From contig DUBX01000042.1 in the NCBI GenBank assembly GCA_012960115.1, positions 23,364 through 87,363 on the forward strand: a stretch of DNA of 64,000 nucleotides. The letters run 5' to 3'. The notes beneath the pieces are model-generated. The model saw only the letters and a list, made by a program, of their open reading frames with translations. It searched no databases and was not told the DNA's origin. This document shows, piece by piece, positions 700 through 11,741 of this stretch. Source of the stretch: Porticoccaceae bacterium (GTDB lineage Bacteria > Pseudomonadota > Gammaproteobacteria > Pseudomonadales > Porticoccaceae). How positions within the stretch are numbered: position 1 is the first letter of the stretch; each line of letters begins with the position of its first letter. The translations under genes were made by a program, and so were the position numbers.

Positions 700-2557
700 A
701 CTGAACCTCGCGCTCAAACCCCGGGATGGACATGCCTGTCTCTGACATCTGAACCCCAGCCTCATCGATTAGAGATTCTCCGAAACGATAAATAACGTTA
801 AGTTCTGCTGCATCTGCTCGAGCCGAATATTTAGTAGCTTCGGAGCGAGTGGTTTCTCTCTTTTTAAGGTAGTCTGAAAAATCATTACTGTGCCGATTGG
901 CAAGCATAGCGCTGGCTTTTTCTGCCGACAAAACTACCGCTGTCGCATTGTTCCCCCCAAATCCTTTTGAGTTAATAAAGGCAACTTCCATTGATTTTGA
1001 GCTCACATCAAGGTCAGTCAGCGGAAAATTAAGGCCGTCTTGAAATACATCTGAGGCGACGGTGGAAATGGTTTTAATACCGGGAATCAACCCATGTTTA
1101 AACGTTCCTAAGGCGGCGATTAACTGGTCCCCACTGGCAGCACTAAGACTGTGTCCAACATAAGCTTTTACGGCGGTAACTGGCCAATCTTCTATTCCAA
1201 AGGTTTGAGCAACTCGGCTGATTAATTCTGACTCGGTCACTCTATTAGCTGGCGTGCTAGACCCGTGGGCATGAACAAAACTGCGCTTTTGAACACCCTC
1301 TTTACCAACGATATTAACGGCAGCAGCAACAGCTTTAGCAAAGGAAATATAGTTTCCAACGCCAGGAGCAGAAATTGATTTTTTAACGCCATCAGCATTA
1401 ATGAACACTTCCGGTACAGCTCCATGAACATCCGCTCCTAGTTCTAGGGCTAAACGATCCTCCATCAAAACAATGTACTGGGTGCCTTCGGACAGCGTGA
1501 AGCCACAGTTCTCGCCAAAGGGTCTGCTGGCTTTGCGCCAGTTAGGACTGTCAGAGTTGTCTAGTTTACAAAGGTTTTCATCGCTGGCAAGAGCACTCAT
1601 ATTTGAAAATCCTTCCGAACATTCCGGCGTGACCGGCGCTTCCGCATTACCCACGATGGCTACTCGGCGACGGCCGCTACGGATGTCTCTCACTGCAGCT
1701 TGCAGCACATAGAGAAAACTTGCGCAGGCTCCAGTAATAGCCTCCGTATGGCCAACACTACCTAAAATATAGGCGTTGATGAAATCAGCGGGCATAGTGT
1801 TCAGCCCTAATGCCAACTGCTTAGCCGTCGTTCTGTCGCCCCTTAATCGAGCCTGCAGAAGACCACCATTCCCCTCTTCAGTTACCTGACCAAAAACACT
1901 CGATGAATAGACACCAACCTGATCAGGATTTACCTTTGCCGCTACTACCTCCCAAGGAATCCCCATTGAATGTATGGCGTCACTCGCACCCAGCAAGGTC
2001 ATTTGCAATCCACGAGGGTGAAATCTAGCGTTATAGTGGTCTGCTGGATTAAACCCTGTTGGCAATTGTCCCGCCGCTTTTGCGGCCAATTCATAATTAG
2101 AAGTCACCAAATATTCGCTAGCAGAAGATGTTTTGACCTCGACCAGGCCGTCTTTAGCATCACTGACGAGCCAGTCCGCTGGTAGCACTTTAGGCAAGTC
2201 TCGCTTAATCATTGTAAAGTGGGGGGACTGGTCACCATCAAATGAAATCTTTTTATTTCCGGGTATCTGAGACGGATCAAAATGCTCAATCTTACGGACT
2301 AAGGTTCCCTCAATCACAGCTGTTCTATACTGCTCGACAACCCTAGATAGACTCAGACCGGTATTATCAGCGTCACTAAACTCTTCGCCCTCTGCTTTCA
2401 CATAACCCATCAGGCAAGCCAGGCTAGCAATAGTCTTATTCTGCTCATCCACGGGTAAAGATTCCAGCACCATGCGTCGGAAGGCCTGATGAGAGGAGCT
2501 GCGGCCAGCGGCATTAAATCCACCAAATCCAACGATAAGGGGCAGAGCTTCAGACAT
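656..2557 (-). CDS. fabY: Large beta-ketoacyl synthase, FabY-like
   Basis: Start MSEALPLIVGFGGFNAAGRSS; GACASFLYVLQAA, HAHGSSTPANRVTE and VKAYVGHSLSAASGDQ ketosynthase motifs; ~630 aa. Confidence 0.7.
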   Translation of the reverse strand: MSEALPLIVGFGGFNAAGRSSSHQAFRRMVLESLPVDEQNKTIASLACLMGYVKAEGEEFSDADNTGLSLSRVVEQYRTAVIEGTLVRKIEHFDPSQIPGNKKISFDGDQSPHFTMIKRDLPKVLPADWLVSDAKDGLVEVKTSSASEYLVTSNYELAAKAAGQLPTGFNPADHYNARFHPRGLQMTLLGASDAIHSMGIPWEVVAAKVNPDQVGVYSSSVFGQVTEEGNGGLLQARLRGDRTTAKQLALGLNTMPADFINAYILGSVGHTEAITGACASFLYVLQAAVRDIRSGRRRVAIVGNAEAPVTPECSEGFSNMSALASDENLCKLDNSDSPNWRKASRPFGENCGFTLSEGTQYIVLMEDRLALELGADVHGAVPEVFINADGVKKSISAPGVGNYISFAKAVAAAVNIVGKEGVQKRSFVHAHGSSTPANRVTESELISRVAQTFGIEDWPVTAVKAYVGHSLSAASGDQLIAALGTFKHGLIPGIKTISTVASDVFQDGLNFPLTDLDVSSKSMEVAFINSKGFGGNNATAVVLSAEKASAMLANRHSNDFSDYLKKRETTRSEATKYSARADAAELNVIYRFGESLIDEAGVQMSETGMSIPGFEREVQFNLENSWKDMQKTD

Positions 2558-7676: not shown

Positions 7677-8336
7677 ATGCATATACAGACAATTAAATTT
7701 CAATCAGCCGAATTCACCACGAGTGCGCCCTCACTGAAACAGTGTCCCGAGGATACGGGTTGTGAGGTAGCCTTTGCGGGAAGATCCAACGCGGGTAAGT
7801 CAAGTGCCATTAACACGCTCACCAAAAATAAGGGTTTAGCGCGGACAAGTAAGACGCCAGGCAGAACTCAGCTAATTAATTTTTTCCAGCTTAGCCCAGG
7901 GAAAAGATTAGTGGATTTACCAGGTTACGGCTACGCAAAAGTCCCCAAGGCCATGAAGGTAGAGTGGGATAAGCACCTAGCCGAATACCTTCGTTTGCGT
8001 AAAAGTTTAGGCGGCTTGATTCTACTCATGGATATCCGTCACCCGCTCCAAGACTACGACCAGCAGATGCTGAACTGGGCAGCAGAAGCAGGGTTACCAG
8101 TACATATTCTACTGACAAAGTCTGACAAACTAAAACGTGGGCCAGCACAAAGCACGCTATTGAAAGTAGATAAATTGCTCCGTGAAATGGATCCCCAGGC
8201 GACTTTATTTACAGCTCAAACATTTTCCGCTTTGAAGAAACAGGGCTTGACCGAACTTGAGGAGCAGCTGAGTCATTGGCTCAGTGCAGGCTTTAGCGTT
8301 GCTGAAGTGTCAACGGTAAGTGACGACATCTCTTAA
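7677..8336 (+). CDS. engB: Ribosome biogenesis GTP-binding protein EngB/YihA
   Basis: [47 protein letters not shown] motifs. Confidence 0.95.
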
Positions 8337-8338
8337 GC

Positions 8339-8372
8339 AAAAAAACCTAATCCAGTTTCTGGATTAGGTTTT
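8339..8372. terminator. Perfect intrinsic terminator, probably bidirectional (engB and the minus-strand sRNA candidate)
   Basis: aaaaaaa-CCTAATCCAG-ttt-CTGGATTAGG-tttt. Confidence 0.88.
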
Positions 8373-8441
8373 CCTTTACTACTTGGGAGTCTTACCTTTA
8401 CTTCTTTATCTCGGGGGAGATTATATGCAATCATCACTTGC
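8339..8441 (-). ncRNA. Candidate trans-acting sRNA in the polA-engB interval (Spot42/ErsA position)
   Basis: Minus strand: GAACTT (8468-8473)-N15-TCAAA (8448-8452) sigmaE-like promoter; ATCTC-CCCC-GAGAT hairpin (8408-8421); 10 bp terminator stem (8346-8368) followed by T7. The 5' end is estimated. Confidence 0.55.
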
Positions 8442-8574
8442 CTAGTCTTTGACAGGGTTTAAACAAGAAGTTCAATTTATTTTTCATAATTTAGTATTTT
8501 GCAATTTTTAATTTCCTTAGCTATTGTTAATACCTACAAATTAACAGCTATTCTCGAATTAGAGAGGGGTAAAT

Positions 8575-8976
8575 ATGCTCGGTAGCTGCCTATGTGGCCA
8601 GATAAAATACGAAGTTGCTTGTTTTGATCCTGAAATCTCTAATTGCCACTGTGCTATGTGTCGAAAATTTCATGGTGCCGCCTTCGCAACCTACGGCAAA
8701 GTGCAGAGGCAAGATTTTAGATGGCTTCAGGGTCAGGCCCTAATACTCACTTATCAATCATCAATTACAGCCGAACGGGGCTTCTGTAGATGCTGTGGAT
8801 CAAGCCTTTACTATAAATTCGTAGGACAAGATGATCAAATTTCCATCGCCATTGGCACGCTAGACGAAGAGCCGTCTCGTTCGGTAGACAACAGTATTTT
8901 TTGTTCATCAAAGCCACTCTGGTCAGTTTGCAACACGGATATTCCTGAGTATCAAGAGTGGCGAAACCCTGCTTAG
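8575..8976 (+). CDS. GFA/CENP-V-like zinc-binding protein
   Basis: [42 protein letters not shown] cysteine motifs. Confidence 0.85.
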
Positions 8977-11741
8977 TGCGCTTCATCCCAGTTATCGCCA
9001 ACGCCCACATCAACCACTAAGGGTACTTTTAGGCTAGTCGCTTGCTCCATTCGCTGGGCAAGCCCAGCCGAGACTATTTCCAACTCTTGCTCTGGCACTT
9101 CGAGAACCAATTCATCATGCACTTGCATGATTATGACGCTCTCCAAATCGCTGTTCTGCAGCCAATCATCTACGGAGATCATGGCTAGCTTAATAATATC
9201 TGCCGCTGTTCCCTGCATCGGCGCATTAATCGCTGTACGCTCAGCAGCTTGACGACGCATACCATTGGAAGAACTAATTTCTGGCAAGTAAAGCCTGCGT
9301 CCAAAATAGGTTTCGACATAGCCGAATTCGGCCGCGTTGTGCCGAATATTGTTCATATAATGTTGTACACCGGGGTAGCGTTGAAAATAGAGCCCAATAT
9401 AGTCAGCTGCTTGCTTACGGCCAATATTCAATTGCCTTGCCAACCCAAAAGCCGACATACCATAAATCAGCCCAAAGTTAATCGCCTTGGCACTACGCCG
9501 TTGATCTACTGTTACCGAATCAGTGTCTGTGCCAAAGATCTCTGCAGCGGTTTCGCGATGAATATCTTGTCCGGCGGCAAAAGCCGCTAGCAGGCTTGGA
9601 TCCTCAGACAAATGAGCCATAATACGCAACTCAATCTGAGAGTAATCCGCAGCAACTATCTTGCATCCAGGAGCAGCAATAAATGCTTGTCGTACTCGCC
9701 GGCCTTCGGCGGTCCGTACTGGAATATTTTGCAAATTGGGATCTGAAGACGAGAGTCGACCTGTGGCTGTGCCAGCCTGATGGTAAGAGGTATGTATACG
9801 CTTCGTCGTAGGATTAATCATGGTTGGCAGCTTATCGGTATAGGTCGACTTGAGCTTTGCCAGTCCACGATGCTCCAATAACACCTTAGGCAGAGGATAA
9901 TCGAGAGCTAGCTCCTGAAGTACCTCTTCTTTGGTTGAAGGCGCTCCCTTGGCGGTTTTCTTCAACACCGGAAGCTCTAACTTGGTAAACAAAATTTCCC
10001 CAAGTTGCTTTGGTGAAGCCAAGTTAAATTCTTGCTCGGCCAATGTCCATGCCTGGCGCTCGAGCTCTGCAATACGCTCAGAAAGTTCTTGGCTTTGATG
10101 AAACAATAGCGTGTCATCCACAAGTGCGCCAGTACGCTCGATTCGTGATAAGACAGGGATTAGTGGCAACTCAATATCTGTGAGTACGCTTGCCAACGTC
10201 GCCTCAGCGGAAACCTTAGGCCACAGCGCTTGATGCAGCCGCAAGGTAATATCAGCATCTTCAGCGGCATAGGGCCCAGCTTCTTCTAGAGCAACTTGAT
10301 TAAATGTCAGCTGCCCGGCTCCTTTGCCCGCAATGTCGGTGAATTTAATAGTCTGCTCACCAAGGTATTTGTCTGCCAAGCTATCCATGTCGTGCCGTGT
10401 CGCGACCGAGTCCAAAACATAAGACTCAAGCATGGTGTCAAATTCAATACCTTTTAACGCAATACCATGCTGCGCAAAGATGCTCATATCATATTTTAAA
10501 TTCTGTCCTACTTTTTTAATGCTGGGATTTTCTAATAGCGGCTTTAAATGTGCCATTACCCTGTCACGTGATAATTGCTCAGGGACGCCTAGATAGTCAT
10601 GCCCAAATGGGATATAAGCAGCCTGACCAGCAACAACGGCTATGGAAATACCCACCAAATCGGCGACCATGTAGTTCAAGCTGGTTGTTTCTGTGTCCAC
10701 AGCAACCAAATCTGCGGCTTTTATTCTTTCTACCCAGGCAGACAACTGGACTTCTGTTAAGACCGTTTCATAATCCTTGACGATATCAACTGGGGCAATT
10801 TCAACTTCTGGTAATGTTAGTTTGGCTTGAGCTGAACTTGCAGGCCCAGCGACTTTAGGACTGTTGCTTTTGTCGCTCTCTGCAACCCATGTCTTAAATT
10901 CCATATCCGCAAACAGCGCAGCTAATCCTTGCTCATCGGCGGGACTATTATGAAGTTGGCTAATGTTTAACGGCATTTCAACATCAGTTTTAATCGTTGC
11001 CAACTGATAAGACAAATAGGCTAGATCTCTATGCTCTTCTAATTTAGGTGCCATGTTTTTGGCCCCCCGAAACTCCAACCCAGATACCTCGTCCAATCGG
11101 GAGTAAATAGCGTCAAGCCCGCCAATCCCTTGCAACAACCCAAGGGCTGTCTTTTCGCCGACTCCCGGCACGCCCGGGATATTGTCAGATTTGTCACCCA
11201 GCAAGGCTAAGTAATCAATGATTAATTCTGGGGGAATTCCAAACTTTTCAATCACCCCCTCTCTGTCAAGAACCGTGTTAGTCATGGTATTCACTAAGGT
11301 GATGTACTCATTGACCAATTGAGCAATATCTTTGTCCCCCGTGGAGACAACCACTGGCTGTTTAGCGAGCGTAGCCTGAACAGCTAGGGTGCCAATGACG
11401 TCGTCAGCTTCAACACCATCGATAATTAGCATAGGCAAGCCCATGGCCTGAATGATTTGATGAATAGGCTCAATTTGCAGCCGAAGGTCATCCGGCATCG
11501 GTGGCCGATTGGCTTTGTACTCACTGTACATGTCATCACGAAATGTTTTTCCTTTGGCATCAAACACCACCACTAATGTGCTTTGAGGGTAATCTTTTTG
11601 TAGCCGACGCATCATGTTAATGACGCCTTTAACCGCACCCGTGGGCATGCCTTTGTTATTGGTCAGTGGCGGCAACGCATGATAGGCTCGGTAAAGATAA
11701 GAAGATCCGTCAACTAAGACTAGCGGATGTTGTTCAGTCAT
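8973..11741 (-). CDS. polA: DNA polymerase I
   Basis: 5' nuclease, 3'-5' exonuclease and polymerase domains; [56 protein letters not shown]. Confidence 0.97.

Follow-up and report, generated by a model that had tools for sequence, protein, structure and literature searches.

Regulatory RNAs between polA and engB

Spot 42 (spf, RF00021), a catabolite regulator that is controlled by CRP and not driven by sigmaE, is annotated in E. coli between polA and the convergent gene engB/yihA. C-rich loops are the contact sites of sX13 and GsrN, whose promoters, loci and targets differ from those of the small RNA (sRNA) described here. In Pseudomonas aeruginosa, the polA-engB interval encodes ErsA (PMC8575079), which is driven by sigma22, uses Hfq and represses the mRNA of the outer-membrane protein gene oprD (PMC8575079, PMC8395346). 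The role proposed below for the sRNA, to remove or silence omp mRNAs under sigmaE, is that of the enteric sRNAs RybB and MicA, which are encoded at other loci (PMC1804206). In Caulobacter, the stress-induced sRNA ChvR base-pairs with and represses the mRNA of a TonB-dependent receptor (TBDR) (PMC6237742). No sRNA study of SAR92 or the Porticoccaceae was found in the open-licence literature.

The locus studied here lies in a 64,000-nt stretch of DNA (the window, by which we mean the whole stretch analysed) from a 2.43-Mb genome in 54 contigs, which belongs to the SAR92 clade (SAR92/HTCC2207 genus, Porticoccaceae) and not to Pseudomonas. Its engB is closest, among named genomes, to those of SAR92-clade, gamma proteobacterium HTCC2207 and Porticoccaceae assemblies. 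There is little doubt, judging from its sequence, that the element in the polA/engB interval is a conserved and previously uncatalogued sRNA gene. As stated in the original prediction, polA (8973-11741, minus strand) is followed by the sRNA (about 8443-8339, minus strand) and by convergent engB (7677-8336, plus strand), both neighbours being supported by tblastn of relatives. This is the order and orientation of the Spot 42 locus, and the two RNAs are of similar length. With ErsA the sRNA shares the interval and an envelope-stress sigma promoter, predicted here by sequence from the conserved GAACTT-N15-TCAAA and from an rpoE gene with a similar promoter. Unlike the sRNA, which has about 105 nt, ErsA comprises 132 nt (PMC5819304), and it pairs with anr via a U-rich unstructured domain (PMC8575079). 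RybB and MicA have no Rfam match to the window, and the targets here would be TBDRs, reached through an anti-Shine-Dalgarno (SD) loop. ChvR is likened to the sRNA by description and not by sequence; it is alphaproteobacterial, two-component-controlled and Hfq-independent. The features of the sigmaE-dependent class that silences outer-membrane proteins can be read from the locus, namely a stand-alone RNA with an ECF promoter and a Rho-independent terminator, and complementarity to the translation starts of outer-membrane protein mRNAs. We file the sRNA as a new family that, as far as its sequence tells, works like ErsA, RybB or ChvR. It would provide a mostly uncultivated marine clade with a new sRNA family that has a named candidate target, add a lineage to the pattern of regulatory RNAs between polA and engB (Spot 42, ErsA), and predict that TBDRs, which are important for marine organic-matter uptake, are under envelope-stress RNA control.

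Gene anatomy on the minus strand

Direct reading of the minus strand gives a promoter (8473-8448) and an RNA (about 8443-8339), which we read as a stand-alone sRNA gene about 105 nt long; the 5' end is estimated from promoter spacing (+/- 3 nt) and the 3' end is the T-run. The sigmaE/AlgU-type promoter GAACTT-N15-TCAAA is located exactly as first described, with the -35 element at 8473-8468 (GAACT being invariant in 19 aligned copies) and, 15 nt from it, the -10 element at 8452-8448, which reads TCTAA, TCCAA or TCAAA in relatives. The pattern GAACTT-N15/16-TCNRA occurs twice in the window against 0.53 expected and is weak evidence when taken alone. Since it is expected about once per two windows, the case for the gene rests on conservation. 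The second occurrence, GAACTT-N16-TCGGA (779-805, minus strand), falls within a long ORF (656-2617) and is probably due to chance.

Downstream of the promoter, the RNAalifold consensus contains a possible small 5' stem, GCAA-GTGATGA-TTGC (8441-8427), of which GCAA is invariant in relatives and TTGC nearly so; the stem is absent from the minimum-energy structure predicted for the own RNA. The hairpin AUCUC-CCCC-GAGAU (8421-8408), seen in the sequence and on folding, carries the seed UCUCCCCC at 8420-8413, and the alignment delimits a second anti-SD-like stretch, GACUCCC (8391-8385), in place of which many relatives have GACUCUCC. Both the hairpin and the CTCCC within this stretch (8389-8385) had been pointed out before. 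The intrinsic terminator, AACCTAATCCAG-AAA-CTGGATTAGGTT (8370-8339), has a perfect stem (8370-8344) and a T7 (8345-8339), again as described, although the stem is 12 bp long and not 10 bp. The RNA as a whole folds at -28.4 kcal/mol, whereas shuffles average -16.8 (z -4.2), and it folds better than 200/200 of them. A TATAAT is present at 8425-8420 as reported; the alternative sigma70 start proposed for it is not conserved, relatives having CATAAT, AATAAT, CATATT or TATATT, and was rejected. A CsrA-sponge reading was likewise rejected, as relatives do not keep the AAAGGAAAA found in the own RNA.

Between the RNA and polA lies a GFA-family-like ORF on the plus strand (8575-8976), which is not part of the RNA gene and had not been pointed out before. 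According to tblastn of relatives it is found at the locus in the own clade only (present in L001-L006, absent from L007-L018), and the RNA is therefore conserved independently of it. The ORF and the end of polA share 4 bases.

Conservation across relatives

When the interval was compared by blastn with 58 relatives, engB-polA copies were found in about 18 genus members, and the locus is present in the SAR92 strains H921 and H231. A covariance model, R1, was built from an alignment of 19 copies and matched 48 of the 51 genomes of the genus, including all 31 that are at least 90% complete. Among 394 genomes of the order, only the own family was matched (nine genomes of the genus and two of a second genus). 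With filters off, R1 additionally found the engB-polA loci of five more assemblies (L231, L232, L234, L238 and L241; E 1e-4 to 0.03), which share the promoter and the C core with the own RNA. The 19-copy alignment shows no variation in GAACT of the -35 element, in TGTC-n-AA around the -10 element or in the core of the C-rich seed. Kept in nearly all copies are the GAACTT/A-N15-TCnAA promoter (with a spacing of 15 in nearly all copies and 16 in the second genus), the unpaired UCUCCCC core, which usually sits inside a hairpin, and the terminator; this recurrence in nearly every relative speaks for the candidate sRNA as originally proposed. Compensatory changes were found at 6 of the 13 consensus pairs, all six within the terminator. 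The stem of the C-loop hairpin is out of register between clades, and for this reason no covariation is claimed for it.

Lying 3 nt past the stop codon of engB, the terminator is nearly symmetric, as would suit an element that is simply the engB terminator and has no RNA of its own. However, the long T-run lies on the minus strand, just four T following the stem on the plus strand, the upstream promoter and the C core are conserved equally with the terminator, and copies comprising promoter, core and terminator exist away from engB. We regard this reading as most improbable; engB transcripts could also end at the terminator. The original prediction would have assigned the element to engB only if the terminator alone were conserved. 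Because promoter and loop are both kept across genus and family, the sequence comparison yielded a different pattern.

A 33-codon ORF beginning with MIAYNLPRDKEVKVRLPSS (8434-8333, minus strand) crosses the sRNA and stays open in the six nearest copies; a small ORF, SpfP, is likewise annotated in E. coli Spot 42. Other copies, however, have no ORF or have 4 to 57 codons in changing frames, and the changes in loop length are not multiples of three, which makes a small mRNA or dual-function RNA very unlikely. The small-peptide reading was rejected, as the frame is not conserved further out.

Relationship to Spot 42 and ErsA

The link to Spot 42 and ErsA made in the original prediction finds agreement in position and predicted regulation, and no covariance match within the searches made here. 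The covariance search with the Spot 42 model (RF00021) gave no match at E <= 0.001 when run on the own genome, while a match is obtained in E. coli, and the model found nothing in the window at the gathering threshold or in a relaxed scan of the locus. The same holds for Rfam in general, which provided no credible match in the window at the gathering threshold or at the locus at a relaxed threshold. R1, used as the query in a one-way comparison, had no match in Pseudomonas-like engB loci and other families of the order, and with filters off none in the Porticoccus, Pseudomaricurvus, Microbulbifer or Pseudomonas-like engB loci. Thus, the sRNA is by sequence not Spot 42 and is not demonstrably ErsA; the promoter found at its locus is of the ECF type.

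The locus could nevertheless be a direct, diverged descendant of ErsA/Spot 42, a reading that concerns ancestry and is compatible with the TBDR explanation. E. coli Spot 42 occupies the same interval in the same orientation, P. aeruginosa ErsA lies in the same interval (PMC8575079) and is likewise driven by an envelope-stress sigma factor, and a Halopseudomonas engB locus (L277) has GAACTT-N16-TCAGA at the same place. Set against this are the absence of a Spot 42 model match in the own genome and of R1 matches, with filters off, in L276, L277, L278, L280, L281 and the Porticoccus or Pseudomaricurvus loci. Such descent is conceivable, but we hold it to be somewhat short of probable.

Probable control by RpoE and Hfq

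All six genomes examined (6/6) encode the canonical RpoE (TIGR02939, above cut-off) as well as Hfq (TIGR02383). In all six, GAACTT/A-N16-TCT is found about 100-140 nt upstream of rpoE, which is likely an autoregulated promoter of the same type as that of the sRNA. We infer that transcription of the sRNA is very probably under sigmaE control. The sRNA ends in a U7 tail, and its action is probably assisted by Hfq.

TonB-dependent receptors as candidate targets

Short, 92%-identical side matches of the blastn search, located elsewhere in other genomes, are translation starts of TBDR genes. The loop of the sRNA is antisense to the SD region of TBDR mRNAs, which is a new observation; for example, the TBDR start TATCTCGGGGGAGATTTATGAAATCT is the reverse complement of the seed hairpin. 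The exact sequence TCTCGGGGGAGA occurs at 32 sites in 40 genomes, comprising 10 copies of the RNA (paralogues included), 21 sites just upstream of the ATG of a related TBDR and one unrelated site. The leader of the related TBDR gene reads UUCUCUA(A)GGGGAGAAUU-AUG instead in the own genome and those nearest to it, and retains the GGGGAGA core together with a hairpin with a G-rich loop, the stability of which is not above that of shuffles. In 21 genomes that have both the RNA and the TBDR leader, the C core is predicted to be unpaired (0.75-1.0), and the longest perfect complement between the two spans 7-10 nt within a genome. At -17 to -29 kcal/mol, the seed duplex beats 200/200 mononucleotide shuffles in 21/21 genomes. 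These energies refer to the seed, as whole-body RNAduplex gave long spurious duplexes and was uninformative. A fully palindromic RNA and a fully complementary TBDR leader are mostly found in different clades, and hence the pairing that is co-conserved within a genome is the core of 7-10 nt. The sRNA probably blocks TBDR translation through its C-rich loop, and the earlier suggestion that the loop could pair with SD regions now has specific candidate sites, found by pattern searches and in selected genome stretches.

We hypothesize that envelope stress frees RpoE, which would transcribe the sRNA from GAACTT-N15-TCAAA, the transcript being ended by its own terminator. The hairpin would display UCUCCCCC in its loop, and this loop may first touch the TBDR mRNA at the G-rich loop of a small, SD-containing hairpin, the SD having the form AUCUCGGGGGAGAU or UUCUCUAAGGGGAGAA before the AUG. 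The loop-loop contact would then zip to a longer duplex, probably with Hfq, and this duplex would block ribosome binding and reduce the synthesis of bulky outer-membrane receptors under stress.

Specificity of the candidate targets

GGGGAGA-N2-6-ATG was found at 114 sites in 8 genomes, about 30 of which are plausible gene starts by our own start-site criteria, and 15 of these about 30 are starts of TBDR genes, which fall into about five families (Pfam Plug). TBDRs account for about 1% of genes (16-23 per genome, with the gene number assumed to be about 2200), and their excess is strong even by family count (p about 1e-5 to 1e-6 in a rough binomial calculation). In the own genome, GGGG is present in the SD region of 8/16 TBDRs compared with 11/121 other genes (p 2e-4); for the TBDRs of three genomes of the genus, the figure is 18/35 (p 2e-7 against the same 11/121). 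The contrast between these 18/35 and 7/29 TBDRs of outgroup genomes without an R1 match is weak (p 0.024). TBDR starts were called heuristically, which favours strong SDs in all sets.

Because the C-rich loop fits any G-rich SD, other targets besides TBDRs are likely. The sRNA might even be a genuine sigmaE-dependent regulator with other main targets, the TBDR match arising from a C-rich loop that meets G-rich SDs. The loop is indeed a short, C-rich one, GGGGAGA SDs also occur in front of non-TBDR genes, the co-conserved pairing within one genome extends over just 7-10 nt, and ErsA provides a parallel in acting on algC, amrZ and anr. Yet half of the gene starts that have a GGGGAGA SD are those of TBDRs and nearly every exact 12-mer outside the RNA is a TBDR site, and we consider it unlikely that the main targets lie elsewhere. 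A Mur ligase gene, in the own genome (L320:450, plus strand) and in G003 (L293), also has a GGGGAGA SD and is a possible non-TBDR target.

Sibling copies and other engB loci

Several genomes contain more than one copy of the sRNA. A second locus, flanked by an aldehyde-dehydrogenase-like ORF on one side and by another conserved ORF on the other, recurs in L037, L138, L140, L141 and L142, with two copies in tandem in L138. On contig C43, near 39.8 kb (minus strand; L208 near 19796, which is G000:C43 from about 39795 downwards; also L322), the own genome has a shorter sibling of about 78 nt, which consists of GAACTT-N15-TCTTA, a hairpin with UUCUCCCCC and a terminator. It is conserved in G003 (L327 near 627, minus strand) with a compensatory change in the terminator. 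Tentatively, the sibling sigmaE sRNAs of the polA, aldehyde-dehydrogenase and third own-genome loci may share the UCUCCCCC loop and its loop-loop contact with the G-loop hairpin at TBDR starts as a dedicated TBDR RNA code. If true, a sibling-sRNA code for nutrient receptors would operate in an abundant marine clade. In G291, which belongs to a sister genus, two neighbouring sRNA copies lie at engB. ECF-type promoters followed by CU-rich stretches are also found at other engB loci (L256 end +189, L277 +288 and L280 +261), which suggests a wider use of this interval for sRNAs.
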